Shown here one piece after another: positions 3,813-20,610 of a DNA stretch of 20,676 nt. A program made the translations under genes and the position numbers. The stretch is from positions 1-20,676 of the IMG/VR virus record IMGVR_UViG_3300042553_000748; one strand, given 5' to 3'. The DNA comes from a virus. Below the pieces are notes generated by a model. The model was not told the origin of the DNA. It ran no database searches and worked only from the letters and a program-made list of their open reading frames with translations. How positions within the stretch are numbered: the stretch's first letter is position 1; each line of letters opens with the position of its first letter.

Positions 3813-3873
3813 CCTCTCGTGGGTCGCTGACCTCATCACCAAGGACGAAAAGGAGAACCAAGATGCAACGTGA
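3805..3873 (+). CDS. Possible 22-residue leader ORF before the exonuclease
   Basis: An ATG at 3805, just before the upstream gene's stop, opens a 22-codon frame beginning MDDLSWVADLITKDEKENQD. It ends 11 bases inside the exonuclease gene, so it spans that gene's ribosome site and start. The peptide is acidic and plausible, but there is no well-spaced ribosome site. It could couple translation of the two genes or be chance. Confidence 0.25.
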   Translation: MDDLSWVADLITKDEKENQDAT

Positions 3874-4801
3874 AAGCACACCCGTAACCGACGAACAGGC
3901 GTGGCTCGCAGCCCGCGCGCACGATGTGACCTCGACCGAGGTCGCCGCCCTGTTCGACGTTTCCCCGTACACCACCGTCTACGAGCTTTGGCACCGCAAG
4001 AAGGCGGGCGAAGTCGCCACCAAGGCGGACAACGAGCGCATGAAGTGGGGCCGCCGCTTGGAGTCGGCCATCGCCCTCGGCGTCGCAGAGGACCAAGGCT
4101 GGAAGGCCAGCCCGCGCAAGGTCTACGAGCGGCTGCCCGAGCTTCGCCTCGGCGCGTCGTTCGACTTCCAAGCGGAGCGCGATGGCCACCTCGGCCTCAT
4201 CGAGGTCAAGAACGTGGACAAGCACATCTTCGTCGACCAGTGGCACGGCGAGGGCGAGTCGCTGATCGCCCCGACGCACATCGAGTTGCAGCTTCAGGCG
4301 CAGCTTCTTGTCTCTGGCCTGACCTGGGGCTGCATCGTCGTGCTTGCCGGCGGCAACAGCGCGCACATCCTGCACCGCGAGGCCGACAAGCAAGTGCATG
4401 AAGCGATCCGCCTCCAAGTGGCCGGCTTCTGGCGCAGCATCGAAGATGACGCTCCTCCGCTGCCAGACTTTGAGCGCGACGCCGACGAAGTGCGCCGCCT
4501 GCTGATGGATGTGAACCAGTTTGAGGTGCTTGAGGCCGACGAGAAGCTGGACGCCAAGATCGCCACGCTGCTGCACGCGCAGGAGCAAGCGGCACATTGG
4601 GAAGCGCAGGTCGAAGCCGGCAAGGCTTCGATCCTGTACGACGCCGGCACCGCCAGCAAGATCCGCTCCCGCTTCGCCACCATCTCCTGCGGCGTCGTCG
4701 CCGGCAGCGCAGGCAAGATCATCACGCCCGAGATGGTCGGGCAGACGATCAACGCTCGCTCGGGCTACCGAGCCTTCCGCCTCACCAAGAAGAAGAAGTG
4801 A
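3863..4801 (+). CDS. YqaJ-type viral exonuclease (recombination)
   Basis: This 312-residue protein is the 5'-3' exonuclease partner of the RecT annealase encoded next; such pairs carry out single-strand annealing recombination. YqaJ family marks are visible: an N-terminal DVTSTEVAALFDVSPYTTVYELW (21-43), a conserved WGRRLESAIA (62-71), and the PD-(D/E)XK core with D101 in GASFDF and E114/K116 in IEVKN. The helix HIELQLQAQLLVSG (139-152) corresponds to the family's QxxxY-like motif. The start at 3863 is chosen because AGGAG lies 7 bases upstream. An in-frame ATG at 3809 adds 18 low-complexity residues and is less likely. The C-terminal third (helices, then a Lys-rich RLTKKKK tail) may contact DNA or RecT. 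Confidence 0.9.
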   Translation: MQRESTPVTDEQAWLAARAHDVTSTEVAALFDVSPYTTVYELWHRKKAGEVATKADNERMKWGRRLESAIALGVAEDQGWKASPRKVYERLPELRLGASFDFQAERDGHLGLIEVKNVDKHIFVDQWHGEGESLIAPTHIELQLQAQLLVSGLTWGCIVVLAGGNSAHILHREADKQVHEAIRLQVAGFWRSIEDDAPPLPDFERDADEVRRLLMDVNQFEVLEADEKLDAKIATLLHAQEQAAHWEAQVEAGKASILYDAGTASKIRSRFATISCGVVAGSAGKIITPEMVGQTINARSGYRAFRLTKKKK

Positions 4802-4803
4802 CC

Positions 4804-5658
4804 ATGACCGAAAGCAACGTTCCCGCGCCGGCACAGACCCGCGCTCTCTCGCCCATCGAGGGCTTCCGTCAGACCCTCCAGACCATGGAGCGCGAATTCG
4901 CCGTCGCGCTGCCGCCGCAGATCCCGGTGGGCAAGTTCGTTCGCACGGTCATCACGACCGTCCAGATGAACCCCCAGCTTCTGGAGTGCGACCGGCGCAG
5001 CCTGTTCGCCACCGCCATGAAGGCGGCCCAGGATGGGTTGCTGCTCGACGGGCGCGAGGCTGCGCCTGTGGTGTTCCGCAGCAAGAACGGGCCGCAGGTC
5101 CAGTACATGCCGATGATCGGCGGGCTGCTGAAAAAGCTCCGCAACTCGGGCGAGTTGAAGTCGATCTCGGCGCACACCGTCCACGAGCACGACACCTTCG
5201 ACTACGAACTCGGGGACGAGGAGCGCATCGTCCACAAGCCGCGCCTCGACGGCGACCGTGGTCGCGTGATCGCCGCCTACGCCGTGGCGCGGACGAAGGA
5301 CGGCGGCATCTACCGCGAGGTGATGAGCCTCGACGAGATCGAGAAGGTCCGCAACGTCAGCCGCGCCAAGGACGCCGGCCCGTGGGCTAGCTGGTACGAG
5401 GAGATGGCCAAGAAGACCGTCCTGCGCCGGCTGATGAAGCGGTTGCCTTCCTCGGCGGATCTGGACGCCGTGGTCGAGGCGGACAACGAGACCTACGACC
5501 TCAAGCAGGCCAAGCCGGTCGATCAGGCTCCGCCGGTCAACCCGATGGCGGCCCTGAAGGCCAAGATCGGCATCGAAGAGGCGACGCCGCCCTCGGCTCC
5601 CCCGATGGAAGACCACCCCAACGCCCCGCGCCCCGAGGACTTCCTCGACGCCCAGTGA
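4804..5658 (+). CDS. recT: RecT single-strand DNA annealing protein
   Basis: RecT coats single-stranded DNA produced by its partner exonuclease and anneals it to complementary strands. At 284 residues it fits the family's usual length of about 270-300. Recognisable RecT segments include NPQLLECDRRSLFATAMKAA (about 57-76), DGLLLDGREAAPVV, the strongly conserved VQYMPMIGGLLKKLRNSG (about 99-116), VHEHDTFDYELG (about 125-136) and SWYEEMAKKTVLRRLMKRLP (about 197-216). The C-terminus is Pro/Glu-rich and probably disordered, as is usual. ATG 4804 lies two bases after the exonuclease stop, with AAGAAGAAG as ribosome site, so the two genes are coupled. A TTGACA-bearing inverted repeat follows the stop. 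Confidence 0.95.
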   Translation: MTESNVPAPAQTRALSPIEGFRQTLQTMEREFAVALPPQIPVGKFVRTVITTVQMNPQLLECDRRSLFATAMKAAQDGLLLDGREAAPVVFRSKNGPQVQYMPMIGGLLKKLRNSGELKSISAHTVHEHDTFDYELGDEERIVHKPRLDGDRGRVIAAYAVARTKDGGIYREVMSLDEIEKVRNVSRAKDAGPWASWYEEMAKKTVLRRLMKRLPSSADLDAVVEADNETYDLKQAKPVDQAPPVNPMAALKAKIGIEEATPPSAPPMEDHPNAPRPEDFLDAQ

Positions 5659-5698: not shown

Positions 5699-5892
5699 TG
5701 AGCACGACTGACGATTGCTGTGAAGCCTGCGGGCGCAGAATGGGCGGCATGGGCTTGACCGCCCGCCGCTGGAACGGCGATCGCCTACAGGTGTGCTCCA
5801 GCTGCTTCACGCAGGGAGGTCACCATGGCGATTGTGCGGATCAAGGTCAGCCGCTTGGGAAACAAGTGCGGCCAGCATCACCACCGAGCTAA
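5698..5892 (+). CDS. Small four-cysteine zinc-ribbon protein
   Basis: From GTG 5698 this 64-residue product reads MSTTDDCCEACGRRMGGMGL and later DRLQVCSSCF, giving two CxxC pairs about 25 residues apart. That is the standard zinc-ribbon spacing. Its last 22 codons overlap the next gene in another frame; there the protein loses its composition, so only the first 42 residues or so are likely conserved. A TTG start at 5659 is possible but would cover the inverted repeat. Function is unknown; a small DNA- or RNA-binding accessory of the recombination module is possible. Confidence 0.55.
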   Translation: MSTTDDCCEACGRRMGGMGLTARRWNGDRLQVCSSCFTQGGHHGDCADQGQPLGKQVRPASPPS

Positions 5893-6160
5893 GATCACCG
5901 ACTCGCTGGTGCAGAAGCTGCGCGACCTGAACGAGAACTGGGGGCTGGGCTGGCGCAAGCTGGCGGCGCAGTTCGAGCTAAACCCTCACACCGTCAAGTC
6001 GATCCTGTCCATGGCGCGGCGCAATACGCTCGCCGTCGAGTGGCGGTGGGTCGATACCGACAACCCCTACCCGAACAAGGGCAAGAAGCGCAGAGGCAAG
6101 CCCAAGCCGCCCGTCATCCACCGGCCCGACTTGGCCGAACGCATCGCCGCACTCCCCTAA
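5825..6160 (+). CDS. Helix-turn-helix DNA-binding protein
   Basis: This 111-residue basic protein has a strong ribosome site, GGAGGT, at 5816-5821 before ATG 5825. Residues 22-66 (AKITDSLVQKLRDLNENWGL, then GWRKLAAQFELNPHTVKSIL) form a helix-turn-helix like the Hin/resolvase-type or 'RAKLTDEEV' DNA-binding modules common in phage regulators and HNH proteins. A Lys/Arg/Pro-rich linker (KGKKRRGKPKPP) and a short helical tail follow. No catalytic domain is present. It may regulate the downstream block or act as a late regulator. It is the last gene of the recombination module. Confidence 0.75.
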   Translation: MAIVRIKVSRLGNKCGQHHHRAKITDSLVQKLRDLNENWGLGWRKLAAQFELNPHTVKSILSMARRNTLAVEWRWVDTDNPYPNKGKKRRGKPKPPVIHRPDLAERIAALP

Positions 6161-8345: not shown

Positions 8346-8406
8346 TCGTCGCGACGAACACTGCACTATATCGCCGGCCATGCCCGGCGAAGTGCAACAT
8401 AGTGCA
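8346..8406. promoter_or_regulatory. Palindrome cluster around the terS start
   Basis: TCGTCGCGACGA (8346-8357) is a perfect 12-bp palindrome. TGCACTAT (8362-8369) is exactly complementary to ATAGTGCA (8399-8406). Inside, CGCCGG (8372-8377) pairs with CCGGCG (8384-8389), leaving the terS ATG in the 6-base loop. Possible roles are operator, translational hairpin, or small-terminase binding site (pac). No Shine-Dalgarno is visible for this ATG. Confidence 0.5.
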
Positions 8407-8850
8407 TGGTCTCCCGATCTTGCGGCGGCGGTCGTGGCGCTTGTGAGCGAGGGGAAGTCTCTTGCCGAAATAGCTTTGCGGCCGGGCATGCCGAGCGAGG
8501 GGGTGGTGAAGGGGCGGAGGAAGGCCGACCCCGCGTTCGCCCAGGCCCTGGCCGATGCTCGCCGCGATGCGGCCGACCGGCTAGCGTCCGAATGCCTGCG
8601 GATCGCCGACGCGAGGGACACCGACGACCCCGACGACGTGGCGCATCGACGCCTGCGAATCGAAACGCGGCAACGGCTAGCCCGCGCATGGCATCCGGCG
8701 ACCTACGGTGACGCGACGCGCACGACGCTGGCCGGCGACCCCGCCGCGCCGATCGCGCTAACCGATGCCGACCGGGCCGCTCGCATCGCGGCCATCCTGG
8801 CGAGCGCCGGGGAGCAAGGTGCGCCCGCGTTGCCGGCACCCGACGCCTAG
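8380..8850 (+). CDS. terS: Small terminase subunit, Sf6-like
   Basis: TerS recognises the packaging site on phage DNA and delivers it to TerL. This 156-residue protein has the Sf6-type layout. An N-terminal helix-turn-helix (LAAAVVALVSEGKSLAEIAL, then GMPSEGVVKGRRKADPAFAQAL, about 14-57) is followed by helical oligomerisation segments (ARRDAADRLASECLRIAD, about 60-77). Then comes the diagnostic HRRLRIETRQRLARAWHPATYGD (about 89-111). The C-terminus is Ala/Pro-rich. ATG 8380 lies in the loop of a hairpin and has no good ribosome site, so regulated translation is possible. It is unusually far (2.2 kb) from terL, separated by a repeat-rich gap and two unrelated genes. Confidence 0.82.
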   Translation: MPGEVQHSAWSPDLAAAVVALVSEGKSLAEIALRPGMPSEGVVKGRRKADPAFAQALADARRDAADRLASECLRIADARDTDDPDDVAHRRLRIETRQRLARAWHPATYGDATRTTLAGDPAAPIALTDADRAARIAAILASAGEQGAPALPAPDA

Positions 8851-8860
8851 GGCGATCGAC

Positions 8861-8889
8861 GGCAGGGCAGGGCAGGGGCAGGGCAGGGC
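8861..8889 (+). repeat. GGGCA tandem repeat, G-quadruplex candidate
   Basis: Five runs of at least three G (starting at 8865, 8870, 8875, 8881 and 8886), each separated by CA, lie just after the terS stop. Short loops and more than four G-runs satisfy the usual G-quadruplex pattern on this strand. Confidence 0.65.
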
Positions 8890-8892
8890 CGA

Positions 8893-9000
8893 CGCCAGGA
8901 CGCTAGGGCGCAGCACGCCAGGGGGCGAGGGGCCGACGCCAGGGGGCATGCCGCGCCGCGCCAGGGCAGGCGCAACGCCCGACCGCGCACGCCAGGGGGG
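8893..9000 (+). repeat. Five phased CGCCAGG direct repeats
   Basis: CGCCAGG starts at 8893, 8916, 8937, 8959 and 8990, mostly extended to CGCCAGGGG. The steps are 23, 21, 22 and 31 bp, close to two or three helical turns, so all copies would face the same side of the DNA. This is iteron-like and could bind a terminase or initiator. Confidence 0.6.
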
Positions 9001-9024
9001 TGGGGTGGGGGTACCCCCCTTTTT
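8995..9024 (+). terminator. G/C hairpin followed by T5
   Basis: GGGGGG (8995-9000) can pair with CCCCCC (9014-9019), followed by TTTTT at 9020-9024. The 12-bp palindrome GGGGGTACCCCC occupies 9007-9018. CCACCCCCC at 9046-9054 offers an alternative partner for 8995-9003. It is a plausible intrinsic terminator after terS. Confidence 0.5.
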
Positions 9025-9164
9025 GCGGTCGCTCGCGGTTTGTTACCACCCCCCTTTCCCAAGGGCCAACCATTTCAATCTTCTCGGCAAGACTGCCGTG
9101 CATCTTGAAGTTGTTGTCGTTCTGCTCCCTGGTCCTACCTTATGTAGCAAGCAACCGTTGTCCT

Positions 9165-9182
9165 ACCACAAGCTGTTGTGGT
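9165..9182. promoter_or_regulatory. Inverted repeat ACCACAA-N4-TTGTGGT
   Basis: Seven-base arms at 9165-9171 and 9176-9182 are exactly complementary around GCTG. The symmetry and size suit a dimeric regulator site. No adjacent start is evident. Confidence 0.4.
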
Positions 9183-9239
9183 TTGGGTGCTTGTCCAAGT
9201 GCAGGCCGTGTTGATGGTCTGCTTGCTCTCTCCTGCACC

Positions 9240-9297
9240 GTTACGGTGGACTGCATCTGTTACGGCGAACACGCGTAACGTTTGGCGTTTCGTTACG
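9240..9297. repeat. GTTACG array, left cluster
   Basis: GTTACG starts at 9240, 9259 and 9292, and its complement CGTAAC at 9274. The last copy is part of the 14-base GGCGTTTCGTTACG (9284-9297), which recurs exactly at 9676-9689. Confidence 0.6.
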
Positions 9298-9650
9298 TCA
9301 CGCGAATCGGCAAGATCCTGCGTGTACGGAGTCGTTGCAGCCGACGGTTGCTGCGTTTTCCCAGATGCGGTGCTTCGCACCTGACGCTGCGCTTCGCTCC
9401 GCTACTGTTGTACGGGGAGAGGGGATCAGGATCGCTGTTGTGCGATCTGATGAGCAGCAGAGCAGAGTTGCGAGGTTTGCTTCTGCTCTTCTAGCGGCGT
9501 GCGTACTGGGGCCGTTGAGGTAGTAGTCTGTACCATGCCGGGAGACTTTTTTCAACGCCGAAGTTGGTCTGCGTAGGAGAGATTCCTTGGGAATCCGTGT
9601 TCCCCTGGTGTTTTTGGGGTGTGGCGGCTCTCAGAATCTTGCCGATTGGC

Positions 9651-9725
9651 GTTACGCGTAACGTTACGTAACGGAGGCGTTTCGTTACGGTGCCGAGCGT
9701 AACAAATGGCGATGTTCGGCGTAAC
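9651..9725. repeat. GTTACG array, right cluster, with two 12-bp palindromes
   Basis: GTTACGCGTAAC (9651-9662) and CGTTACGTAACG (9662-9673) are perfect palindromes sharing one base. Further copies are GTTACG at 9684 and CGTAAC at 9698 and 9720. The cluster ends about 75 bases before the start of the exported-protein gene, so operator, initiator and packaging roles are all possible. Confidence 0.65.
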
Positions 9726-10714: not shown

Positions 10715-11101
10715 ATGATGAACCACTTTGACGGCTGGCTGATGCGCTGCGAGCAGTCGCTTGAAACGTTCCGTGGCGAGATGATCTCTCTCGCCGGGGC
10801 GTCCGATGAGATGTTCAAGGGCGGCGACGAGGCTCTGGCGAAGGCAGTCCAGCGGCTGACGCAGTTGTTCGGGCAGGCCGTTGGCCCGATTATGTCCGAG
10901 ATGTCCGGCATGGGGACGATCATGCTGGAGGGGCAGCGCAACCCCTACGACGAGACGAAGCTCTACTCGCTGTGCTTGGCGACGAACGACGCCGGCACGA
11001 TGCTGAAGGACTGGGCCATGGAGCAGGCTCAGGGGCGGCTGGAGGCTGCAAAGAAGGCCGGCCACAAGTACGCTTTCGAGTGTGACGACGATCAGTCCTG
11101 A
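10715..11101 (+). CDS. Hypothetical protein upstream of terL
   Basis: This 128-residue protein starts at ATG 10715 (or 10718) behind GTAGGGAG. It is mostly helical, with Met-rich segments (FRGEMISLAGASDEMFKGGDEALAKAVQRLTQLFGQAVGPIM ... MLKDWAMEQAQGRLEAAKKAG), and ends in an acidic tail (ECDDDQS). No family is recognised. Its end overlaps terL by 20 bases, so it is translated with the terminase. It could be a packaging or head accessory protein, or an unrelated early product. Confidence 0.7.
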   Translation: MMNHFDGWLMRCEQSLETFRGEMISLAGASDEMFKGGDEALAKAVQRLTQLFGQAVGPIMSEMSGMGTIMLEGQRNPYDETKLYSLCLATNDAGTMLKDWAMEQAQGRLEAAKKAGHKYAFECDDDQS

Positions 11102-12632
11102 GGTTCTTGCTCGCCTTTCGCCCGAGAAGCGGAAGGAGTTGGACGAACTTCTTGCGGCGGACACGACGCTGTGGAGGCCGCTGCCTGGGCCGCAGACGAT
11201 GGCCTTCCACAGCAAGGCCGATGTGGTTGGGTACGGCGGCGCGGCTGGTGGAGGAAAATCGGATCTAGCGGTCGGCCTGTCGATCACCCAGCACCAGAAG
11301 GTGGGGATCTTCCGCCAGAACGGAACCGAACTGGTCGGCATCATCGACCGGATCGGGGAGATCCTGAAGACGAAGGACGGCTACAACGGCAAGGACCACA
11401 TCTGGCGGTTCCAGCGTCCTGACGGGGCACAGGTTCAAATCGAGTTCGGGTCGTTTCCCAACCCCGGCGAAGAACGCAAGTACCAGGGTAGACCACACGA
11501 CCTGCTGGTCTTTGACGAGGCGTCGAACATGCGGGTCGAAGCCGTCCGGTTCCTGCTGGGCTGGCTGCGCACGACCGACCAAAGGCAGCGGTGCCGCGCC
11601 CTGTTCACGTTCAACCCGCCCACGACCGCCGAAGGTCGGTGGGTGGTCGAGTACTTCGGCCCGTGGCTGAACAAGAAGCACCCGAACCCTGCCCAGCCGG
11701 GCGAACTGCGGTGGTTCGCCGTGATCGACGGCAAGGAGGTCGAGGTCGCGGACGGCAAGCCGTTCATGTCGGGGGCAGAGAAGATCCTGCCGCAGTCCAG
11801 GACGTTCATCCCGTCGCGGATCGCTGACAACCCCTACCTGATGGGCACGGGCTACATGGCGCAGCTACAGAGCCTGCCAGAACCTCTGCGCAGCCAGATG
11901 CTGTACGGCGACTTCTCCGCCGGCATGGAGGACGACCCGTTCCAAGTCATCCCCACCGGCTGGGTCGAGGCAGCACAGGCCCGCTGGAAGATGCCCGACA
12001 AGCTGGACGAGATGACCAGCCTGGGCGTGGACGTTGCCCGTGGCGGTCGGGACCAAACCATCATCGCCCGCCGGCATGGCATGTGGTTCAACCAGCCGCT
12101 GGTCTACCCAGGCACCCAGACCCCAGACGGGCAGACCGTGGCCGCGCTGGTCATGGCAGCCAAGCGCAACCAAGCCCCGATCCACATCGATGTGATCGGC
12201 GTCGGAAGCTCGCCCTACGACTTCCTGCGGGAGATGGGGCACCAGACCATCGGCGTCAACGTGGCCGAGTCGGCGCGCTCGACTGACAAGAGCGGACGCA
12301 TCACCTTCAAGAACCTTCGCAGCGAACTGTGGTGGCGGATGCGGGAAGCCCTAGATCCCGCCAACAACACCGGCATCTGCCTGCCCCCAGACCCGCGCCT
12401 GCTGGCAGACCTCTGCGCGCCAACGTGGAAGTCGGTCGGCACCACCATCGCCGTCGCCAGCCGCGAAGAAATCTACGAACGCATCGGACGATCACCAGAC
12501 TTCGGCACCGCCTACGTCCTTGCCCTCATGCAGACCACCAAGACCGGCACCCTGCTGGAAGACTGGCGCGCAAACGTCCGAGACAACGCCCAGTACAACC
12601 CGTACGACATCCTGCGGATGGACCTGCGCTAA
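11082..12632 (+). CDS. terL: Large terminase subunit (packaging ATPase/nuclease)
   Basis: TerL threads DNA into the procapsid through the portal using ATP and cuts it with a C-terminal nuclease. The 516 residues fit the family. The ATPase domain has Walker A GGAAGGGKS (52-60) and Walker B DLLVFDEAS (140-148), followed by a coupling-motif-like FTFNPP. The RNase H-like nuclease domain begins near LGVDVARGGRDQT (about 314-326), with D317 as first acidic ligand. HIDVIGVGSSPYDFL (about 367-381) carries the next. GTG 11082 gives the N-terminus MTTISPEVLARLSPEKRKEL and overlaps the preceding gene by 20 bases with a weak ribosome site. The element ACGGGGTGCAT starts on the last base of its stop. Confidence 0.95.
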   Translation: MTTISPEVLARLSPEKRKELDELLAADTTLWRPLPGPQTMAFHSKADVVGYGGAAGGGKSDLAVGLSITQHQKVGIFRQNGTELVGIIDRIGEILKTKDGYNGKDHIWRFQRPDGAQVQIEFGSFPNPGEERKYQGRPHDLLVFDEASNMRVEAVRFLLGWLRTTDQRQRCRALFTFNPPTTAEGRWVVEYFGPWLNKKHPNPAQPGELRWFAVIDGKEVEVADGKPFMSGAEKILPQSRTFIPSRIADNPYLMGTGYMAQLQSLPEPLRSQMLYGDFSAGMEDDPFQVIPTGWVEAAQARWKMPDKLDEMTSLGVDVARGGRDQTIIARRHGMWFNQPLVYPGTQTPDGQTVAALVMAAKRNQAPIHIDVIGVGSSPYDFLREMGHQTIGVNVAESARSTDKSGRITFKNLRSELWWRMREALDPANNTGICLPPDPRLLADLCAPTWKSVGTTIAVASREEIYERIGRSPDFGTAYVLALMQTTKTGTLLEDWRANVRDNAQYNPYDILRMDLR

Positions 12633-12669
12633 CGGGGTGCATCAACCTTTTCTTGGCGACCTAGCGTCG
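12632..12669 (+). promoter_or_regulatory. Two-part repeated element, copy A
   Basis: ACGGGGTGCAT at 12632-12642 and TAGCGTCG at 12662-12669 are separated by 19 bp. The same pair with the same spacing recurs at 20247-20284. In both places the element starts on the last base of a stop codon and ends 5-6 bases before the next start. It may be a phage-specific promoter or regulatory site. Confidence 0.55.
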
Positions 12670-12674
12670 CCGAG
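12652..12674 (+). promoter_or_regulatory. Hairpin just before the acetyltransferase start
   Basis: CTTGGCGAC (12652-12660) pairs with GTCGCCGAG (12666-12674), with one wobble and a 5-base loop. It ends one base before ATG 12676, where it would hide the ribosome-binding region. Confidence 0.5.
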
Positions 12675-12675
12675 A

Positions 12676-13113
12676 ATGCGGTATGCCACCCACGACGACA
12701 TCCTGGCTCTCGTAGAGCTAGGCCGCCCCTTCGTTGAACAGCACCCAATGCTGAAGGGCGTCGCCGTCTCGGACGAAAGCCTCGCCACGACCCTCAGCAA
12801 CGTCATCGAGCATGGTGTCATCATCGTCGCTGAAGACACCAACGGCCAACTGATCGGCTTTCTGGCGGGAATGCTGGCACCAGTTTGGTGCGCACCGAAC
12901 TACAAGGTCGCCGCCGAACTCGCATGGTGGATGAAGCCGGGTCATCGCAACGGCATGACCGCCATCCGCATGCTGCGCCAGTTTGAGAACTGGGCCGAAG
13001 GCCAAGACGCTGCCCAAGTCATCGTCAGCAGCATCCCATCCATCAGCCAAAAGGTGGGGGATCTGTACGGCAAGCTGGGCTACCAACTCGTCGAAAACTC
13101 CTACAGGAAGTAA
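12676..13113 (+). CDS. GNAT-family N-acetyltransferase
   Basis: GNAT enzymes transfer an acetyl group from acetyl-CoA to an amine on a small molecule or protein. This 145-residue protein has the fold pattern: N-terminal MRYATHDDILALVELGRPFV, a beta pair VIIVAEDTNGQLIGFLAGM (about 48-66), then WWMKPGHRNGMTAIRMLRQFENWA (about 84-107), where GHRNGM matches the acetyl-CoA-binding loop. It ends with a beta strand and LYGKLGYQLVENSYRK, the standard 'F/Y-x-K-x-G-Y' ending. Such enzymes often lie between terminase and portal genes of related podoviruses. The substrate is unknown; a virion protein or host factor is possible. Confidence 0.85.
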   Translation: MRYATHDDILALVELGRPFVEQHPMLKGVAVSDESLATTLSNVIEHGVIIVAEDTNGQLIGFLAGMLAPVWCAPNYKVAAELAWWMKPGHRNGMTAIRMLRQFENWAEGQDAAQVIVSSIPSISQKVGDLYGKLGYQLVENSYRK

Positions 13114-13115
13114 CC

Positions 13116-13451
13116 ATGCCCATTGGTACTACAGCGGCGATTCTCGTCGGCAGCGCGCTAACTGCCGCAGCGACGACCTACGCAGCCGAAACGGCCAAGA
13201 AAGGCCAGAAGCAAGCCCTTCGCCAGCAAGAGAAGGCGCAGACCGAAGCGACTCGCATGGCAACCGCAGAACGCGAGATGGCCGGCGCGGAACGCCGCCG
13301 CATGGAAGGCAAGACGCCGGATGTCGCCGCCCTTCTGACCGGCGAACAGGGCGCGCAGGGCCGAGGTGCCGCCAGCACGTTGCTGACCGGCAACACCCGC
13401 ATCGGTGACCAAATGGACCGCATCGGCAAGAACAACCTCTTGGGTGAGTGA
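13116..13451 (+). CDS. Small helical protein upstream of portal
   Basis: This 111-residue protein starts at ATG 13116, two bases after the acetyltransferase stop. It has an Ala/Gly-rich hydrophobic start (TTAAILVGSALTAAATTYAA, about 5-24) that could be a membrane segment. A long charged, Gln/Glu/Arg-rich helix (KKGQKQALRQQEKAQTEATR) follows, then a Gly-rich tail. Proteins of this type precede the portal in several podoviruses and may be internal virion or ejection proteins, but the role is not established. A holin is less likely, since only one hydrophobic segment is seen. Confidence 0.7.
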   Translation: MPIGTTAAILVGSALTAAATTYAAETAKKGQKQALRQQEKAQTEATRMATAEREMAGAERRRMEGKTPDVAALLTGEQGAQGRGAASTLLTGNTRIGDQMDRIGKNNLLGE

Positions 13452-13453
13452 CC

Positions 13454-15139
13454 ATGGACAAGCGTACGCTTCGCCAACGCCTTCAAGAGCGCCATAGCGC
13501 GCTCAAGACGGAGCGTACGTCATGGGACACCCATTGGCGCGAAATCACCGAGTACCTGCTGCCGTGGTCGGGTCGCTACTACACGACCGATCGAAACAAG
13601 GGCAACAAGCGGCAGACCAACATCTACGACAACACGGCGACCCGCGCCCTGCGAACGCTCAACTCGGGCCTGATGGCCGGAGCGACTTCGCCAGCGCGAC
13701 CGTGGTTCCGACTCGCCGCGCCAGACCCTGACCTCAACCAGTTCCACCCGGTCAAGGTCTGGCTGGAGGACGTTCAGCAACGCATGATGCGGGTGTTCCA
13801 GCGGTCGAACGCCTACCGCGCACTGCACTCCATGTACGAGGAGCTTGGCGCGTTTGGCACAGGCGTCTCCATCCTGCTGCCTGACCCCGAGAAGGTGATC
13901 CACCTCTACCCGATCACCGCAGGCGAGTACTGCCTGTCGCAAGACCCTCAAGGCAAGGTCTGCGTCTTCTACCGCGAGTTTGAGATGACCGTCGCGCAGG
14001 TCGTCCGCGAGTTCGGCTACGACAAGTGCTCGCACTCAGTACGCACGCTGTACGACCGTGGCACGCTGGAAGGCGGCATCACCATCATCCATTGCATCGA
14101 GCCTCGCTACGACCGCGACCCGTCGAAGCTCGACAAGATGAACATGCCGTACCGCTCGGTCTACTACGAGCAGAGCAACAACGAGCCTGTCGTGCTGCGC
14201 GAGTCGGGTTTCGAGAAGTTCCCGGTGCTGGCTCCGCGTTGGTCGGTGACGGCAAACGATGTCTACGGCAACAGCCCCGGCATGGAGGCGTTGCCAGACA
14301 TCCGCCAGCTTCAGCACGAGCAACTTCGCAAGGCGCAGGGCATCGACTACCAGACCCAGCCGCCGTTGCAGGCCCCGACCAGCATGCAGGGCCGTGCGGT
14401 CAACATGCTGCCGGGCGGCGTCACGTTCCACGACGCGCCGCAGCAGCAGGGAATCCGTACTGCGTTTGAGACGAACCTCAACCTCCAGTACCTGCTCAAC
14501 GACATCCAAGACGTTCGCTCGCGCATCAGCCGGTCGTTCTACGAAGACCTGTTCTTGATGATGCAGAACGACCTCCGCAGCAACATGACTGCGCGAGAGA
14601 TCCAAGAGCGGCACGAGGAGAAGCTGCTCATGCTCGGCCCGGTCATGGAGCGGTTGCAGAACGAACTGCTGGAGCCGCTGATCGACCTGACCTTCGACGC
14701 GATGCTGGAGCAGGGCCTCATTCCGCCGGCACCAGAAGAGCTTGGCGGCGTCAACCTCGGCGTCGAGTTCGTGTCGGTTCTCGCGCAGGCCCAGCGCGCC
14801 GTTGGCAGTTCGTCGGTGGATCGCTTCATCGGCAATGTCGGCGCGGTCGCGCAGATGCGTCCCGAGGTGCTTGACAAGCTCGACACCGACACGCTGGTCG
14901 ATCGCTACGGCGACATGCTCGGCATCGATCCGAACATCATCGTGCCGACTGAGAAGGCCCAGGCCCTGCGCGATGCGCGCAACAAGGCGATGGCCGCACG
15001 CGAACAGGCAGCTGTCATGCAGCAGTCCTCGCAGACCGCCAAGAACTTGGCCGCCGCCAAGACGACCGAACCCAGCGCGCTGACCGATGTGATGAACATG
15101 TTCAGCGGCTACAACAGCCCAGCGTCAACGGAGCTTTAG
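13454..15139 (+). CDS. Portal (head-to-tail connecting) protein
   Basis: The portal forms the dodecameric ring at one capsid vertex through which TerL packages DNA and to which the tail attaches. The 561 residues fit the podovirus head-to-tail connecting family. Typical segments are WDTHWREITEYLLPWSGRYY (about 24-43), an N-terminal NSGLMAGATSPARPWFRL (about 69-86), YEELGAFGTGVSILLPDPEK (about 126-145), PVLAPRWSVTANDVYGNSPG (about 253-272), and MTAREIQERHEEKLLMLGPV (about 378-397). The C-terminus is Ala/Gln-rich and helical. I chose ATG 13454; a GTG at 13448 would add two residues. It is the firmest evidence for podovirus type. Confidence 0.95.
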   Translation: MDKRTLRQRLQERHSALKTERTSWDTHWREITEYLLPWSGRYYTTDRNKGNKRQTNIYDNTATRALRTLNSGLMAGATSPARPWFRLAAPDPDLNQFHPVKVWLEDVQQRMMRVFQRSNAYRALHSMYEELGAFGTGVSILLPDPEKVIHLYPITAGEYCLSQDPQGKVCVFYREFEMTVAQVVREFGYDKCSHSVRTLYDRGTLEGGITIIHCIEPRYDRDPSKLDKMNMPYRSVYYEQSNNEPVVLRESGFEKFPVLAPRWSVTANDVYGNSPGMEALPDIRQLQHEQLRKAQGIDYQTQPPLQAPTSMQGRAVNMLPGGVTFHDAPQQQGIRTAFETNLNLQYLLNDIQDVRSRISRSFYEDLFLMMQNDLRSNMTAREIQERHEEKLLMLGPVMERLQNELLEPLIDLTFDAMLEQGLIPPAPEELGGVNLGVEFVSVLAQAQRAVGSSSVDRFIGNVGAVAQMRPEVLDKLDTDTLVDRYGDMLGIDPNIIVPTEKAQALRDARNKAMAAREQAAVMQQSSQTAKNLAAAKTTEPSALTDVMNMFSGYNSPASTEL

Positions 15140-15144
15140 TCACC

Positions 15145-15651
15145 ATGGTTGCACCTCTCTACAACGTCGATCCCGTGGGGCAGCACACCTACGGGTTGGC
15201 TCATCCGTTTCCGGTCGCACACGCGGGTACTACTCCGCAGCACGGCACCGTCACCACGGGTTCGACTACGACCACCATCAACCCAAACGGCAAGACGGGA
15301 ACGTCCAACTCGGTCGGATTGCGGATTAGGTTTCTTGATGGTCCTGCTGCGGGGCAGACTGCGATTGTGGCGCAGGACAACGCCACCAACTTTGTGCTAG
15401 CTACGGCGTTGACCGCTGCCCCGGCGTCTGGAAACTCGTTTGTCTTGGAGTTTGCGACGCCATGCAACGCGATCTACGTCGGCCCCAGCACGACGGTCAG
15501 CGTAGACGTTGACACCACCCTCGCCGTCGTAGGCGGGACCGGAACGACGCAAATGTCGTTTGCCACGGGTGCCGCGCAGTCGCTCTGGCTGCCCATCAAG
15601 GCGCGTCGCATGTTCGCCACGACCGGCACCACCGCAGTCGCCTTCTGGTAA
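15145..15651 (+). CDS. Probable virion protein with beta-rich module
   Basis: This 168-residue protein is Thr/Gly/Ala-rich and beta-predicted, like virion decoration or fibre proteins. It starts at ATG 15145 six bases after the portal stop. Residues 59-103 (GLRIRFLDGPAAGQTAIVAQ ... ALTAAPASGNSFVLE) resemble two segments of the Kelch-like protein at 17512 in pattern: 'I-x-x-L-x-GP-x-x-G, then polar loops, then SA/SG-x-x-Y/F'. The N-terminus (YNVDPVGQHTYGLAHPFPVAHA) may be a virion-attachment segment. Its exact role is unknown. Confidence 0.65.
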   Translation: MVAPLYNVDPVGQHTYGLAHPFPVAHAGTTPQHGTVTTGSTTTTINPNGKTGTSNSVGLRIRFLDGPAAGQTAIVAQDNATNFVLATALTAAPASGNSFVLEFATPCNAIYVGPSTTVSVDVDTTLAVVGGTGTTQMSFATGAAQSLWLPIKARRMFATTGTTAVAFW

Positions 15652-15884
15652 TGTCTGGAAGCAGCAGACGCGGCGGCGAGCGCGACCAGCCTACAAACAT
15701 ACCTGTGGCTGGCGAAGTGCTGCGTCGTGAAGTGCTGCGACTGGGATTCGCGCAAACCAACGTCATTCAAGCGTCCGGTCAAACAGGCCAACCACCTGCT
15801 GCGGTTTTGCAGTGGGCCGGACCTTGGGACGGTCCAATCCCCGACGGCATCTTCGTCTCTAGCTATGTAGGAGATTGGGCGTGA
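15651..15884 (+). CDS. Small virion-associated protein, possibly part of a split module
   Basis: This 77-residue protein starts at ATG 15651 sharing one base with the preceding stop (TAATG). It is polar at first (SGSSRRGGERDQPTNIPVAG), then ends AAVLQWAGPWDGPIPDGIFVSSYVGDWA. The Trp-rich end WAGPW resembles the start of a chitin-binding-like module whose remainder (YYRGQVVSNDGSSYVC) opens the next gene. No membrane segment or enzyme motif is seen. It is translationally coupled to the fibre gene by GTGA. Confidence 0.6.
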   Translation: MSGSSRRGGERDQPTNIPVAGEVLRREVLRLGFAQTNVIQASGQTGQPPAAVLQWAGPWDGPIPDGIFVSSYVGDWA

Positions 15885-17053
15885 CCGTCTACTACAGAGG
15901 GCAAGTCGTAAGCAACGATGGGAGCAGCTACGTCTGCATCCTCGACCATACTAGCAGCGCAACTGACGAGCCTGGGGTTGGCGCATCATGGACGACGTAT
16001 TGGGCACTTGTCGCGGAAGCAGGCCAAGGTATTACGACTGGCACGAAAGGCGACATCGATGTCACCAATAGCGGTGCAACGTGGACCATCATACAGAATG
16101 CGGTAACCTACGCCAAAATACAGGATGTCACCGCAACGGATCGCCTGCTCGGGCGCAGTTCGGCGGGTCCGGGTGACATCGAGGAGATCCCATGCACGGC
16201 GGCAGGAAGGAGACTCCTTGACGACGTTGATGAGGCAGCGCAGCGCACGACGCTGGGCCTTGGCACGCTGGCAACGCAAAACGGCACCTTCAGCGGCACC
16301 ACCAGCGGCACGAACACAGGCGATCAGACCATCACGCTGACCGGCGATGTCACCGGCAGCGGCACGGGCAGCTTCGCGGCGACGATCGCCAACGATGCCG
16401 TGACATACGCCAAGATTCAGAACGTCTCGGCGGCCTCGCGGCTGCTTGGCCGTGGCGACAGCGGCTCGGGCGACGTGCAAGAGATCACGCTCGGGGCTGG
16501 CCTTTCTATGACCGGCACCACGCTGGAGTCGACTGGTGGCGGCGTGACGGACGGCGACAAGGGCGACATCACCGTCTCGGCGTCTGGCGCAACGTGGACC
16601 ATCGACCATGCGGCTGTCACGTTCGCCAAAATGCAGGACATCACCAGCCAACATCTGGTTGGCCGGCACGCTGGTAGCACCGGGGCATCGCAGGAAGTCG
16701 GCGTAGGCAACGGTGTCGAGTTCCACGGTAGCGGCATCAGGCGCAGCCAGTTGCTTGGCGATGTCGAGGCATCCGCCGGCAGTAACACGACTACGATCGC
16801 CACGGGCGCGGTCACGTTGGCAAAGATGGCGAACCTCGCCACCGACACGCTGATTGGTCGCCAAACGGCTGGAACAGGCGTTCCAGAAACCATCGCGTGC
16901 ACAGCTGCGGGCCGCGCCATACTTGACGATGCCAGCGCCTCGGCGCAGCGTACAACGCTAGGGCTTGGCACAGCGGCCACGCAAAACATCAGCAGCGGAA
17001 CGGCGTCGCCAACCGGCGGCGCTGACGGCGACATCTACCTCCAGTACGTCTGA
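15881..17053 (+). CDS. Repeat-rich tail fibre / surface protein
   Basis: This 390-residue protein starts at GTG 15881 behind TAGGAG at 15868-15873. Residues 4-45 (YYRGQVVSNDGSSYVC ... HTSS...WTTYWALVAE) look like a small carbohydrate-binding module. Four repeats follow around residues 75-103, 173-202, 246-273 and 311-339, with the core 'AVTYAKIQ(D/N)V-x(4-5)-RLLGR-x(5)-GD-x-x-EI'. A second repeat, CTAAGR-x-(L/I)LDD-x(6)-QRTTLGLGT, occurs at 105-129 and 340-364. Both repeat types are common in phage fibre and structural proteins. It probably forms a trimeric beta-rich fibre or tip that contacts the host surface. The C-terminal SPTGGADGDIYLQYV is a typical short capping motif. Confidence 0.8.
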   Translation: MTVYYRGQVVSNDGSSYVCILDHTSSATDEPGVGASWTTYWALVAEAGQGITTGTKGDIDVTNSGATWTIIQNAVTYAKIQDVTATDRLLGRSSAGPGDIEEIPCTAAGRRLLDDVDEAAQRTTLGLGTLATQNGTFSGTTSGTNTGDQTITLTGDVTGSGTGSFAATIANDAVTYAKIQNVSAASRLLGRGDSGSGDVQEITLGAGLSMTGTTLESTGGGVTDGDKGDITVSASGATWTIDHAAVTFAKMQDITSQHLVGRHAGSTGASQEVGVGNGVEFHGSGIRRSQLLGDVEASAGSNTTTIATGAVTLAKMANLATDTLIGRQTAGTGVPETIACTAAGRAILDDASASAQRTTLGLGTAATQNISSGTASPTGGADGDIYLQYV

Positions 17054-17055
17054 CC

Positions 17056-17508
17056 ATGGCCGACAACGTAGGATACACCCCAGGGACCGGCGCAACGGTC
17101 GCAGCCGACGAGATCGGCGGCGTTCTCTTCCAGCGCGTGAAGCCCGTGCATGGTGCGGACGGCACCGCGACGGACACCAGCGCGACGAACCCGCTGCCGG
17201 TCGCCGCGTACGGCGAGCTGGTCGAATCCATCGAGGCCTTGCGCATGGCGGTCCACTCGCTGACGCGGAGTATCGGCCAGTCGCTGCCGTCTGCGCAGGG
17301 CTGGCCGATCATGGAGGCGAGGCAGCCGACGGCGGCCAACCTCGCCGTCACCGCCAGCATCGCAGGATCACAGACGCTTGCGACGGTCACGACCGTCAGC
17401 ACACTGACCAATCAGACGCAGATCGGCGGCTTCGCCGCAAACGACTACATGCCGGCGCTGCTGCACATGCAGTCCGACAATCTGCGCCGCAACATCTCGG
17501 TGAACTGA
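17056..17508 (+). CDS. Conserved virion structural protein, function unknown
   Basis: This 150-residue protein begins MADNVGYTPGTGATVAADEI, then GGVLFQRVKPVHGADGTATD. This start is frequent in phage structural proteins (from memory). A helical part follows (VESIEALRMAVHSLTRSIGQSL, about 56-77), then a Thr/Ser-rich stretch (QTLATVTTVSTLTNQTQIGG) and a C-terminal MQSDNLRRNISVN. It is likely a virion or tail-assembly protein that associates with the adjacent fibre and Kelch-like proteins. ATG 17056 lies two bases after the fibre stop. Confidence 0.75.
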   Translation: MADNVGYTPGTGATVAADEIGGVLFQRVKPVHGADGTATDTSATNPLPVAAYGELVESIEALRMAVHSLTRSIGQSLPSAQGWPIMEARQPTAANLAVTASIAGSQTLATVTTVSTLTNQTQIGGFAANDYMPALLHMQSDNLRRNISVN

Positions 17509-17511
17509 CAC

Positions 17512-18942
17512 ATGGCAACAACGAACGGCAATCGCAAGATCCTCGACTTGAAGCGGTGGGAGTTCTGCAACCCCGCTCCAATCGCCACCGCCACCGCATC
17601 GTGCATCGCCTCGTCGCGGCACTTCCGGCAGCAGCAGTTCTTCCTCCGCAGCGCGACGGAGGCGTACATCTACAACCCGAGCGAGGACGGATGGGTGCTG
17701 CTTGCGTCGCCGGCTCTGACTCCCGCGCTGGCAGCTGGCGCGTCGGCGGTGGCTAGCGCATGGTCCACGGGTTCGACGGTGGGCGCGGCGTCGCTCACCG
17801 CGACGGCGGGCACGACCTCGACGATCACGACCAACCAGACGTTGGCGCGTGACCTGCGCGGCTACAAGATCCACATCTTGTCGGGTCCGAACAACGGTGC
17901 GGTGCTCGACATCGTGCGCAACACGGTGGGCGCGACGGCGGTGATCACGGTAGCGACGCAGGCGAGCGCGTTCTCGGCCTCGACGGTGTACCGCCTGCTG
18001 ACGCCGCGATGGTATCTGCTGACTGGGGGCACGCTCGCCGCCGGCAGCTTCCGCGTCTACGACTACGCGACGAACACCTACACGACGCTTGCGCAGGCGG
18101 GACTCGCGGCTTCGCTCGGCACCGACGGCAAGCTGGTGGCCACGCCGTCGATCATCGACGGCGACTTCAAGACGTTCGCCACCGGCACCGCGACGAGCGC
18201 GACGGCCACGACGCTCGTGCAGACGGGCAAGACCTGGACGGCCAGCCAGTGGATCAACTCGCAGGTGCGAATCACCGGCGGCACCGGCGCGGGCCAGATC
18301 CGCACCATCACGGCGAACACCGCCGACACGCTCACCGTTGCAACGTGGACCACGACGCCGGACGCGACCAGCGTCTACGCGATCGAGGGCAACGACAACT
18401 TCCTCTACTACCTGGGCAACAACGCCGTCACGCTCTACCGCTACGACATCACGGCGAACACCTGGAGCACGTTGTCGCCCGGTGCGGCGCGTGCGGCGGC
18501 TCCTGGCGCGGGCATGAGCGCTCACTGGGTGCACAGCGCGACCGAAAGCGACTGGACGAACGAGTCGGCAATCCTGAACGGGCGGTACATCTACTCGTTC
18601 CAGGGCGCGGGCACGGCGGCCCTGCACCGCTACGACATCGCGGCGAACACCTGGGCGACGATCACCTACTCGCCGAACGCGGAGACGTTCACGACGGGCA
18701 GCAAGTACGCGCTGCTCGACGGCATCCTTTACCTCCAGAAGGAGGCGACGGGCCGCTGGTTCGCGTTCGACTTCGCCCGGTCTGAGATGTTCCCGTGGTC
18801 GACGATGCTGTACCCGCAGGGCGCGGCGATCGTCGGCGACACAGCGTTCGACGTGGTCTACAAGGACGGCGCGACGGAGATCTTCTACGTCCACATGGTT
18901 CACAACACGTCAACGATCCACCTGCGTGAGATGGTGATCTGA
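17512..18942 (+). CDS. Kelch-like beta-propeller virion protein, probable receptor binding
   Basis: This 476-residue protein begins MATTNGNRKILDLKRWEFCN. Kelch-type motifs recur: AYIYNPSEDGWVLL (51-64), FRVYDYATNTYTTL (180-193), LYRYDITANTWSTL (308-321) and LHRYDIAANTWATI (371-384). The 'Y-D-x-x-x-N-T-W' pattern strongly suggests a beta-propeller. Between blades lie two copies of a module also seen in the 15145 protein: GYKIHILSGPNNG...VYRL (117-162) and SQVRITGGTGAGQIRTITAN...VYAIE (250-292). The C-terminus (VYKDGATEIFYVHMVHNTST) may form an assembly tip. No enzyme motif is seen. It is probably a tail or spike component. ATG 17512 is three bases after the previous stop. Confidence 0.75.
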   Translation: MATTNGNRKILDLKRWEFCNPAPIATATASCIASSRHFRQQQFFLRSATEAYIYNPSEDGWVLLASPALTPALAAGASAVASAWSTGSTVGAASLTATAGTTSTITTNQTLARDLRGYKIHILSGPNNGAVLDIVRNTVGATAVITVATQASAFSASTVYRLLTPRWYLLTGGTLAAGSFRVYDYATNTYTTLAQAGLAASLGTDGKLVATPSIIDGDFKTFATGTATSATATTLVQTGKTWTASQWINSQVRITGGTGAGQIRTITANTADTLTVATWTTTPDATSVYAIEGNDNFLYYLGNNAVTLYRYDITANTWSTLSPGAARAAAPGAGMSAHWVHSATESDWTNESAILNGRYIYSFQGAGTAALHRYDIAANTWATITYSPNAETFTTGSKYALLDGILYLQKEATGRWFAFDFARSEMFPWSTMLYPQGAAIVGDTAFDVVYKDGATEIFYVHMVHNTSTIHLREMVI

Positions 18943-19103
18943 TGAACACCGCCCAACGGATCGAACTGTACGAGGTCGCGCTGGTCAACCTTGGCACGCA
19001 GCGCACCTGCGCGCTTCGCATCGGCGACGTGGACCGCATCGAGCAGATCGACGCCGAGATGGCGCAGATCGCTGCCGACCTCGAAGTCCTGCGCGCTAGC
19101 TAG
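18942..19103 (+). CDS. Small helical protein (53 residues)
   Basis: The product reads MNTAQRIELYEVALVNLGTQ and continues to a charged amphipathic helix (DVDRIEQIDAEMAQIAADLEVLR), probably coiled coil. ATG 18942 shares its A with the preceding TGA (TGATG), so it is coupled to the Kelch-like gene. No family is recognised by name. Its close packing between virion genes suggests a small virion or assembly factor. Confidence 0.7.
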   Translation: MNTAQRIELYEVALVNLGTQRTCALRIGDVDRIEQIDAEMAQIAADLEVLRAS

Positions 19104-19105
19104 CC

Positions 19106-19267
19106 ATGCTGCTGACTCTGCTCGCACCGACTGGAGCACCACCGACCAACACGGTCGTCTGGCTCAAGGTCGGCGGCGTGTGGAAGCAGGCGACGGTCTG
19201 GCTGAAGGTGTCCGGGGTCTGGAAGACCTGCACAACCTTCGTCAAGGTGTCCGGGGTCTGGAAATAA
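19106..19267 (+). CDS. Small protein of three WLKVxGVWK repeats
   Basis: This 53-residue protein starts at ATG 19106, two bases after the previous stop. Three near-identical units follow a short leader: VVWLKVGGVWKQA, TVWLKVSGVWKTC and TFVKVSGVWK. Such 'VKVGGVWK' repeats are known from tail-associated phage proteins, where each unit makes a small beta hairpin. The repeats are also near-identical in DNA, which suggests recent unit copying. It probably decorates or caps the tail fibre complex. It is the last gene before a terminator. Confidence 0.75.
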   Translation: MLLTLLAPTGAPPTNTVVWLKVGGVWKQATVWLKVSGVWKTCTTFVKVSGVWK

Positions 19268-19280
19268 GCCACGGAAACTC

Positions 19281-19322
19281 TTAGCGGCAAAACAGAAAAA
19301 AGATGTTTGCCTTTTTCGCTAA
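19281..19322. terminator. Nested intrinsic terminator after the virion genes
   Basis: GGCAAAACA (19286-19294) pairs with TGTTTGCC (19304-19311), with one bulge, and is followed by TTTTT at 19312-19316. An outer pair, TTAGCG (19281-19286) with CGCTAA (19317-19322), encloses it. It ends the virion transcript. Confidence 0.7.
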
Positions 19323-19343
19323 ACTTCTAAGTACACGAATGTT

Positions 19344-19706
19344 ATGGCTGTAAGCATGAGCCACGCAATTTTGTCTGGCCTTGCGGCTATTGTCGCCGGA
19401 GGCAGTGTTGCGATTGTCACCGGATCGGCAATGCCACAAACGGACATCGCCGCTATCCCGTGGGACAAGTTTCTTGGCGTCGGCAGCGGCGGCTTGGCAT
19501 TCGGAGTAGCGTGGTATTTCTTGCAGCGCGAAGAACGCATGCGGAAGGCTCACGACGAGTTGACGCAGAAGCACCTAGAGACGACCAGCATGATTTCGCG
19601 CACGTTCGCTGAGACGACCCACACGATGGTCCGCGAGGTCCGCGACGAAGCGGAGAAGCGCGAACAGCGCATGCTAGACTTGTTGCACAAGAAGAACATC
19701 GCATGA
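19344..19706 (+). CDS. Two-membrane-segment coiled-coil protein, holin-like
   Basis: This 120-residue protein has two hydrophobic segments: ILSGLAAIVAGGSVAIVTGS (about 9-28) and FLGVGSGGLAFGVAWYFL (about 43-60). A long charged helix (REERMRKAHDELTQKHLE ... REVRDEAEKREQRMLDLLHKK) follows. Two membrane spans plus a cytoplasmic coil match many phage holin or membrane-associated lysis proteins. Its position directly before a lipoprotein gene supports a lysis role, but no endolysin is nearby. ATG 19344 is used; ATG 19356 is also possible, and neither has a strong ribosome site. Confidence 0.7.
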   Translation: MAVSMSHAILSGLAAIVAGGSVAIVTGSAMPQTDIAAIPWDKFLGVGSGGLAFGVAWYFLQREERMRKAHDELTQKHLETTSMISRTFAETTHTMVREVRDEAEKREQRMLDLLHKKNIA

Positions 19707-19945
19707 ACACCCTCGTCCGTCGTGCCGCGCTTGCGGCGTCCCTGCTTCTTGCTGCGTGCGCTTGCCCAGACGCTCAGATGGCGTCGGCGGATGTGGCAAC
19801 GTACGAATGGTTTGCGCCTATGTTCGCATCGTACGTTGAAGACGACACCAAGTTGTCGGATGCGGACAAGGCGACATACCTTCGAGGGCTTGAGGCGTGG
19901 CGCGAGCGCGTGATGGCGGCGGCCAAGTCCGCTGGGGTGCGCTGA
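19703..19945 (+). CDS. Small lipoprotein, lysis-cassette type
   Basis: This 80-residue protein starts at ATG with an ATGA overlap. MNTLVRRAALAASLLLAACA has a basic start, a hydrophobic core and the lipobox LAAC, giving a lipidated Cys19. The mature part (DVATYEWFAPMFASYVEDDTKLSDADKATYLRGLEAWRERVMAAAK) is acidic then helical. Similar short lipoproteins accompany lysis genes in many phages. It could act as an outer-membrane spanin-like partner or inhibit superinfection; neither is proven. It is too long and too Pro-poor for a typical Rz1. Confidence 0.75.
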   Translation: MNTLVRRAALAASLLLAACACPDAQMASADVATYEWFAPMFASYVEDDTKLSDADKATYLRGLEAWRERVMAAAKSAGVR

Positions 19946-20247
19946 TGGCTGTGCCCAACCAGATCGAGTCGATCGTCAAAGACGAGCTGCATGCCCTGCT
20001 GGAGTCTCTGAAGACCGATGTCGAAGACCCTCGGCTGCGGGCAAACTTGCTCGCAATGGCCGAAGATGCGGCAATGCTTCCGATTCGCATAGCTAGAGGC
20101 GAGGATGTGGACAGCATCTATCGGTCGTTGTCCGCCGAAGCGCAGAATCGGGCCATGGCCCATCGCATCAAGGTACAGGAGATCGTGCGCGCTGCGTGGA
20201 CGAAGGCGTTGGCGCGCATTCTGACGGTCGTGGTCTCCGCCCTGTGA
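19945..20247 (+). CDS. Hypothetical helical protein
   Basis: This 100-residue protein starts at ATG 19945 overlapping the lipoprotein stop (TGATG). The sequence MAVPNQIESIVKDELHALLE and onwards is almost wholly helical and charged, then ends with a hydrophobic helix (AAWTKALARILTVVVSAL) that may touch or cross the membrane. Its GTG-rich ending and its position suggest a third member of the lysis or envelope cassette. It has no catalytic motif. A longer in-frame start at 19897 would overlap the lipoprotein gene and is not supported. Confidence 0.65.
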   Translation: MAVPNQIESIVKDELHALLESLKTDVEDPRLRANLLAMAEDAAMLPIRIARGEDVDSIYRSLSAEAQNRAMAHRIKVQEIVRAAWTKALARILTVVVSAL

Positions 20248-20284
20248 CGGGGTGCATAGAGTATTTGCGCCGTCCATAGCGTCG
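20247..20284 (+). promoter_or_regulatory. Two-part repeated element, copy B
   Basis: ACGGGGTGCAT (20247-20257), 19 bp, then TAGCGTCG (20277-20284) matches copy A at 12632-12669. GTG 20290 follows 5 bases later. CGCCG and CGGCG around it can form a short hairpin, as in copy A. Confidence 0.55.
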
Positions 20285-20289
20285 GCGTA

Positions 20290-20610
20290 GTGAGCGACTA
20301 CAACCCACACGACATCGAAGGCCAGAAGGCCGCAGAGCAAGACAGAGCTTTGCGGGAACGTCTGGCCTCTGAGGCGGAAGTGGATGATGTGAAGTGGCTC
20401 ATGGGCAAGAAGCAGGGCCGACGCATTGTGCATCGGTTGCTGTCCAAGGCCGGAGTCTTTCACTCCATCTTCAACACCAACTTCGGGGTCATGGCCTTTG
20501 AGGAAGGTAGGCGAGATGCGGCGCGCAGGATTCTGAGCTTGGTCAACCTGCATTGCTCCGACCTCTACCCGCTGATGATGCGCGAAGCCGCGCAAGACAA
20601 GCATGACTGA
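20290..20610 (+). CDS. Bbp19-like phage protein
   Basis: This 106-residue protein contains the segment DVKWLMGKKQGRRIVHRLLS (about 33-52) and KAGVFHSIFNTNFGVMAFEEGRRDAARRILSLV (about 53-85). These match the Bbp19-like domain known from BPP-1-type podoviruses, whose usual place is beside the scaffold and capsid genes. It is probably a virion or assembly protein of unknown exact role. GTG 20290 begins a few bases after the repeated element and overlaps the next gene by 8 bases at its end. Confidence 0.75.
   Translation: MSDYNPHDIEGQKAAEQDRALRERLASEAEVDDVKWLMGKKQGRRIVHRLLSKAGVFHSIFNTNFGVMAFEEGRRDAARRILSLVNLHCSDLYPLMMREAAQDKHD

Follow-up and report, generated by a model that had tools for sequence, protein, structure and literature searches.

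What function is served by a two-part sequence that recurs, base for base, in two gaps between the late genes of a single phage? The question arises from IMG/VR virus record IMGVR_UViG_3300042553_000748, examined here over its full 20,676 bases (the window), in which ACGGGGTGCAT-N19-TAGCGTCG is present in two exact copies at positions 12632 to 12669 (site 1) and 20247 to 20284 (site 2), both on the plus strand. The original prediction, made from the letters of this DNA, held the pair to be phage-specific promoters or regulator sites that would start the head-tail and the capsid transcripts. Comparative analysis agrees with this idea and extends it with further copies in relatives, predicted leaderless starts at two sites, and a candidate activator. 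We are highly confident that the elements are promoters, and the comparison of sequences argues strongly that a phage-specific box stands in for their -35. They would probably serve the host RNA polymerase as late promoters, switched on by a helix-turn-helix (HTH) protein resembling Bbp27 of Bordetella phage BPP-1.

Chance had been judged a very unlikely source of the repeat, and no match to it arose in 100 dinucleotide-preserving shuffles of the window. With up to three mismatches allowed, the record yields these two matches and no others, and random copies inside coding genes were looked for and not seen. A scan of IMG/VR in which spacers of 15 to 23 nucleotides (nt) were permitted returned 11 stretches; the spacing was 19 in every copy, and no copy lay outside the same two gaps. 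These gaps, one or both of which hold the element in a given stretch, are that separating the terminase large-subunit gene from an acetyltransferase gene (copy 1 in the window) and that upstream of the Bbp19-like gene (copy 2). Each window copy starts on the final base of a stop codon (TAA ending at 12632, TGA ending at 20247) and ends, as had been described, 5 to 6 bases before the next start (6 nt from the ATG at 12676 for copy 1, 5 nt from the GTG at 20290 for copy 2). The contact with the stop codon holds for both window copies and fails as a general trait: in other relatives the element is clear of the stop codon, an example being L074/L077, where it follows a terminator-like T run upstream of Bbp19. 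A better description of the functional unit is the box GGGGTGCAT followed after 19 nt by TAGCGT. At site 1 the box (12634 to 12642) occupies the -35 place, position-equivalent to the GTRCCCGTA boxes of relatives, and the -10-like hexamer (12662 to 12667) has the ATG 8 nt downstream; at site 2 the box (20249 to 20257), also at the -35 place, is paired with a hexamer (20277 to 20282) that has the GTG 7 nt downstream.

Among annotated phages, the closest are Limnohabitans phage DC33, phage zth2-2, and BPP-1. DC33 (L015, PQ492659.1) is filed as Inoviridae; its 39-kb genome carries BPP-1-like terminase, portal, and Bbp19 genes. Extension of the search to relatives disclosed diverged forms of the element in the same two gaps of BPP-1 and dozens of related podoviruses. 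In BPP-1 these read GGGGTGCCCGTG-N17-TACTGT-N7-ATG upstream of bbp24 and GGGGTGCCCGTG-N17-TAGAGT-N6-ATG upstream of bbp19. The gaps as read in the IMG/VR terminase relatives give the general form, namely, a box, exactly 17 nt, and TANNNT, the box being GTRCCCGTA or one of its variants (GTACCCGTA, GTGCCCGTA, GTGCACGTA, GTGCGCGTA, GTGACCGTA, and GTGCCCATG). The window's own kin and nearby phages have GGTGCAT, GGTACAT, or GGTCCAT. BPP-1 (Rauchvirus) equals the window in gene order and in possessing the HTH protein, with sites upstream of bbp24, bbp19, and bbp9, but differs from it in box and spacing (GTGCCCGTG and 17 nt versus GGTGCAT and 19).

When the spacer length was left free, the pattern GGTACCCGTA-N(10-26)-TAGATTG had a spacer of 17 in 35 of 44 distinct IMG/VR matches, the others being scattered. 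The same freedom was given to a control scan for GGTGCCCGTA..TAGATTG, which covered 84,980 bacterial and archaeal species (one genome each) with one box variant only (the GTGCCC box); here the spacers were flat, with 3 of 79 at 17, and one of these three (L224) belongs to a BPP-1-like prophage contig, at its Bbp19 site. On the strength of this histogram a host alternative sigma promoter was rejected for the GGTGCCCGTA variant. When each of 12 genomes was searched with its own 9-bp box, 44 exact occurrences emerged, 41 of them with TANNNT at exactly 17 nt and all 41 on the late strand, so that the box occurs almost only at promoters. The regular expression box-N17-TANNNT-start codon matched the retrieved phage loci at 58 distinct sites and the reversed sequences once. 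This fixed spacing in relatives supports the reading as a phage-specific promoter, at which transcription would initiate. A -35 element of a sigma-70 promoter would lie 16 to 18 nt upstream of the -10, and the box is 17 nt upstream of TANNNT in the 41 of 44 cases, but it is not TTGACA-like; a consensus scan was negative for sigma-70 promoters at both window sites, and a simple sigma-70 promoter was rejected there on that ground. A T7-type phage RNA polymerase promoter was likewise rejected, since no single-subunit phage polymerase (PF00940) was detected in 18 records, some of them incomplete, with the T7 positive control scoring 9.9e-110.

The distance from the -10 to the start codon varies and is bimodal. 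It is either 5 to 7 nt without a Shine-Dalgarno (SD) sequence, as at most first and second sites, or 21 to 29 nt, mostly with an SD, as at most other sites; a bimodal distribution of this kind is expected if the -10 sets the transcript 5′ end. Because the box-hexamer spacing stays constant while the start codon shifts, the pattern is that of a promoter rather than of a signal for translation; it predicts leaderless or near-leaderless mRNA at the window sites. An SD core was found in 1 of 49 distinct Bbp19 upstream regions of relatives. Given the short -10-to-start distance (5 to 8 nt) and the lack of an SD, leaderless starts are very likely at the window's two sites. The elements could alternatively act in the mRNA, whether as a hairpin that controls translation or as a displaced ribosome-binding site, and site 1 does have a strong predicted 11-bp RNA hairpin just upstream of the acetyltransferase ATG (window 12650 to 12675, z -2.8), both sites moreover lacking an SD. 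The folding of site 2, however, is no better than that of shuffles (z -0.2), the stem-bearing spacer is not conserved between the sites, like elements of relatives stand 21 to 29 nt upstream of starts of which most carry an SD of their own, and Rfam gave no match. A role in the mRNA is in our judgment highly improbable.

In 32 of 32 distinct genomes, the boxes of site 1 and site 2 agree at positions 3 to 6; shuffles gave 8.5 on average and 16 at most. The 17-nt spacers of the two sites, in contrast, are only 39% identical. This bears on the possibility that the pair is a recent duplication or some other functionless repeat of shared descent, as might be supposed where one genome holds two similar segments. 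Spacers and flanks diverge, yet the box is kept in all these genomes and across several box types, and the spacing is constant over dozens of phages. The agreement of the boxes contradicts a functionless repeat, which we judge more improbable still than an element acting in the mRNA. Complete relatives mostly have four sites, all on one (late) strand, located upstream of the acetyltransferase/portal genes, the Bbp19/protease/capsid genes, the gene for a bbp12-like internal virion protein, and that for a bbp9-like tail fiber; in DC33 the four are at positions 34055, 22240, 4584, and 963, on the minus strand. The location ahead of head-tail and capsid genes is therefore as originally proposed, with transcripts presumably starting there.

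Which protein might read the box? When predicted proteins were compared, the only non-structural, non-terminase protein common to 14 of 14 genomes was the homologue of BPP-1 Bbp27. In the window this is an HTH protein encoded at 5825 to 6160 (plus strand), a candidate activator of both sites by its conservation, its HTH, and covariation. Bbp27-like open reading frames (ORFs) typically specify 78 to 111 amino acids, a few being lengthened by early starts, and the gene lies upstream of the terminase small-subunit gene (terS), directly so in BPP-1 and DC33 and at a distance of 2.2 kb in the window, where terS is at 8380 to 8850 (plus strand; PHROG 1482, E 9.6e-24). The BPP-1 gene (L014, 26337 to 26573) is annotated “endonuclease.” Its best Pfam matches are HTH-type, a Pfam search of Bbp27 gave no nuclease domain, and the PHROG “endonuclease” match of the Bbp27-like protein covers the profile only in part. 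The predicted structure of the window protein has helices at residues 26 to 39, 43 to 50, and 54 to 61, with a predicted local distance difference test score above 90 in that part and of 77 overall. Fold searching points to a generic tri-helical HTH (Z ≤6.5, not diagnostic), with sigma region 4 among the consistent folds; Foldseek paired the model with sigma-E region 4 on DNA at a probability of 0.97 but an E of 0.62. No match to Pfam Sigma70 region 4 exceeded the cut-off in 18 records (BPP-1 Bbp27 scored 14.3 bits; cut-off, 25.7), and a sigma-factor homologue was rejected, there being only weak HTH matches.

In the wider group, the HTH of this protein covaries with the box. We analyzed 65 distinct HTH/box pairs on an anchored HTH alignment. 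For box position 3, the best HTH column is the recognition-helix residue three before an RR pair, Arg occurring with G in 29 of 35 cases and a non-Arg residue with A in 29 of 29. For box position 5 it is the residue six before RR: Lys goes with CCC, ACC, or TCC (50/50), Arg with CAC (5/5), and Asp or Gly with CGC (4/4). Relatedness was allowed for through a portal tree and a terminase tree, by means of supported independent pairs. On the portal tree, joint changes were seen in 4 to 5 of 6 such pairs for position 3 and in 3 of 3 for position 5, with none in the opposite direction; on the terminase tree, usually 3 to 4 of 5 pairs changed in the same direction for position 3, again with none opposite. 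The covariation is thus strong by count and modest in its number of independent events. The box of the window's subgroup differs in shape. On the terminase tree, some 34 contigs with the promoter/HTH system (L299 to L323, L354, and L390, among others) sit on a very long branch, reflecting either another kind of terminase or an error in the choice of reading frame.

These observations suggest the following mechanism. The TANNNT -10 would be recognized by a sigma-70-type factor of the host, and in place of the usual -35 the Bbp27-like protein, encoded before terS, would bind the phage-specific 9-bp box (GTRCCCGTA type; GGTGCAT in the window's phage) and let the polymerase start, thereby turning on the virion genes once early expression has taken place. 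Relatives would use four such promoters to start the acetyltransferase/portal, Bbp19/protease/capsid, internal-virion, and tail-fiber units; at the first two, transcription would begin from the start codon or within 1 to 2 nt of it, giving a leaderless or near-leaderless mRNA. The sequences themselves show the architecture of the sites, where and how many they are, the joint variation of the boxes and, in the wider group, that of box and HTH; host polymerase use, binding and activation by Bbp27, and the transcript 5′ ends are what we infer, and that the Bbp27-like protein is the activator of the late promoters seems likely.

Several observations weigh against this scheme. Taken alone, the sign tests on independent pairs are small (p 0.06 and 0.25). 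The window protein (Ser, Ser), found with GTGCAT, departs from the residue code, to which L055/G009, L078/L090, and L298 are further exceptions. TAGCGT, the window's -10 hexamer, matches sigma-70 only weakly, and in Caulobacter phage BL94 (L253, 7190 to 7290) a GTGCGCAT box upstream of Bbp19 has no TANNNT at 17 nt; the BL94 -10 may be of an alphaproteobacterial type. BPP-1 has three sites, not four, the bbp12 site being the one lacking, and the window's subgroup (G001 to G003, records of 42 to 44 kb) yielded only two, with no clear site in the bbp12 and post-bbp10 regions. It could be, then, that the elements are indeed late promoters whose box is read by some other protein of the phage or by an alternative sigma factor of the host: the link to Bbp27 comes from position, conservation, and covariation only, its Pfam matches are to generic HTH domains with sigma region 4 below the cut-off, and the window's own pair lies outside the code. 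A host factor, on the other hand, would have left spacing-17 sites in bacterial genomes, where the histogram is flat, no other non-structural, non-terminase gene is shared by all the genomes compared, and the recognition helix of Bbp27 tracks the box. We consider a different reader unlikely and favor the Bbp27-like protein. A more specific version, which we offer tentatively and regard as doubtful, makes Bbp27 a minimal stand-in for sigma region 4: an HTH protein of about 80 residues would read the -35 box and reprogram the host polymerase to no more than four late promoters, protein and box having coevolved into several mutually exclusive specificities, with the leading late mRNAs leaderless.

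The genes that flank the sites in the window are all on the plus strand, and the two that directly follow the sites have the identities first assigned to them. The terminase large-subunit gene (11082 to 12632) abuts site 1 with its stop codon. The first gene after that site (12676 to 13113), in the bbp24 position, encodes a GNAT-like acetyltransferase (PHROG 1249, E 2.7e-21), and the same unit includes the head-to-tail connector, or portal (13448 to 15139; Pfam Head-tail_con, E 3.2e-183). Site 2 is followed by the Bbp19-like gene (20290 to 20610; Pfam Phage_Bbp19, E 1.7e-10), the first of the protease/capsid unit; neither this gene nor that for the acetyltransferase has an SD. The interval from portal to Bbp19, which in BPP-1 holds bbp20 only, spans about 5 kb in the window (15145 to 20247) and contains a tail-fiber/kelch-like gene (17512 to 18942) and small genes, one of which (19344 to 19706) gives a weak DUF7269 match. 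Between terS and the next long ORF is a gap of about 850 bases (8851 to 9705) with no clear late-strand gene. In the early region (3809 to 5658), a YqaJ-type exonuclease is paired with a RecT annealase.

Diversity-generating retroelements have BPP-1 as their model phage, yet we found no account of its virion-gene switch; nor did we find an earlier account of the element, of Bbp27 as a regulator, or of BPP-1 late promoters, in a literature of which most subscription papers could not be searched. The data provide a testable answer for a sizable podovirus group, with a defined late regulon and a candidate activator hitherto labeled an endonuclease. They also provide a partial code of protein-DNA recognition for which naturally varied pairs exist, predicted leaderless late mRNAs, and a DNA tag by which the late promoters of this group can be recognized in metagenomes.

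Among known systems, the late regulators RinA, the Ltr families, and TP901-1 Alt of Gram-positive temperate phages can be likened to Bbp27 as small proteins encoded upstream of terS. The Ltr/RinA regulators activate late promoters via repeats, the Ltrs reportedly binding some four imperfect direct repeats ahead of a single promoter and driving one long transcript (PMC13123087). The Bbp27 system, in contrast, has a single 9-bp box at the -35 position and up to four dispersed promoters, two of them with predicted leaderless starts. Sigma appropriation by MotA/AsiA at T4 middle promoters, where the MotA box is 12 ± 1 bp from the -10 (PMC2988021), is similar in that a phage box takes the place of the -35 and the sigma-70 -10 is kept; here, however, the box is 17 nt from the -10 and the genes served are virion rather than middle genes. 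No AsiA-like cofactor was identified for the Bbp27 system. With sigma-70 region 4 and its -35 element the system has in common the box position, the 17-nt spacing, and the tri-helical HTH fold, but Bbp27 falls below the Pfam Sigma70_r4 cut-off where checked, and many other HTH folds score equally. Without claiming membership in either, we would see in Ltr/RinA and MotA/AsiA the closest working analogues of the Bbp27 system.

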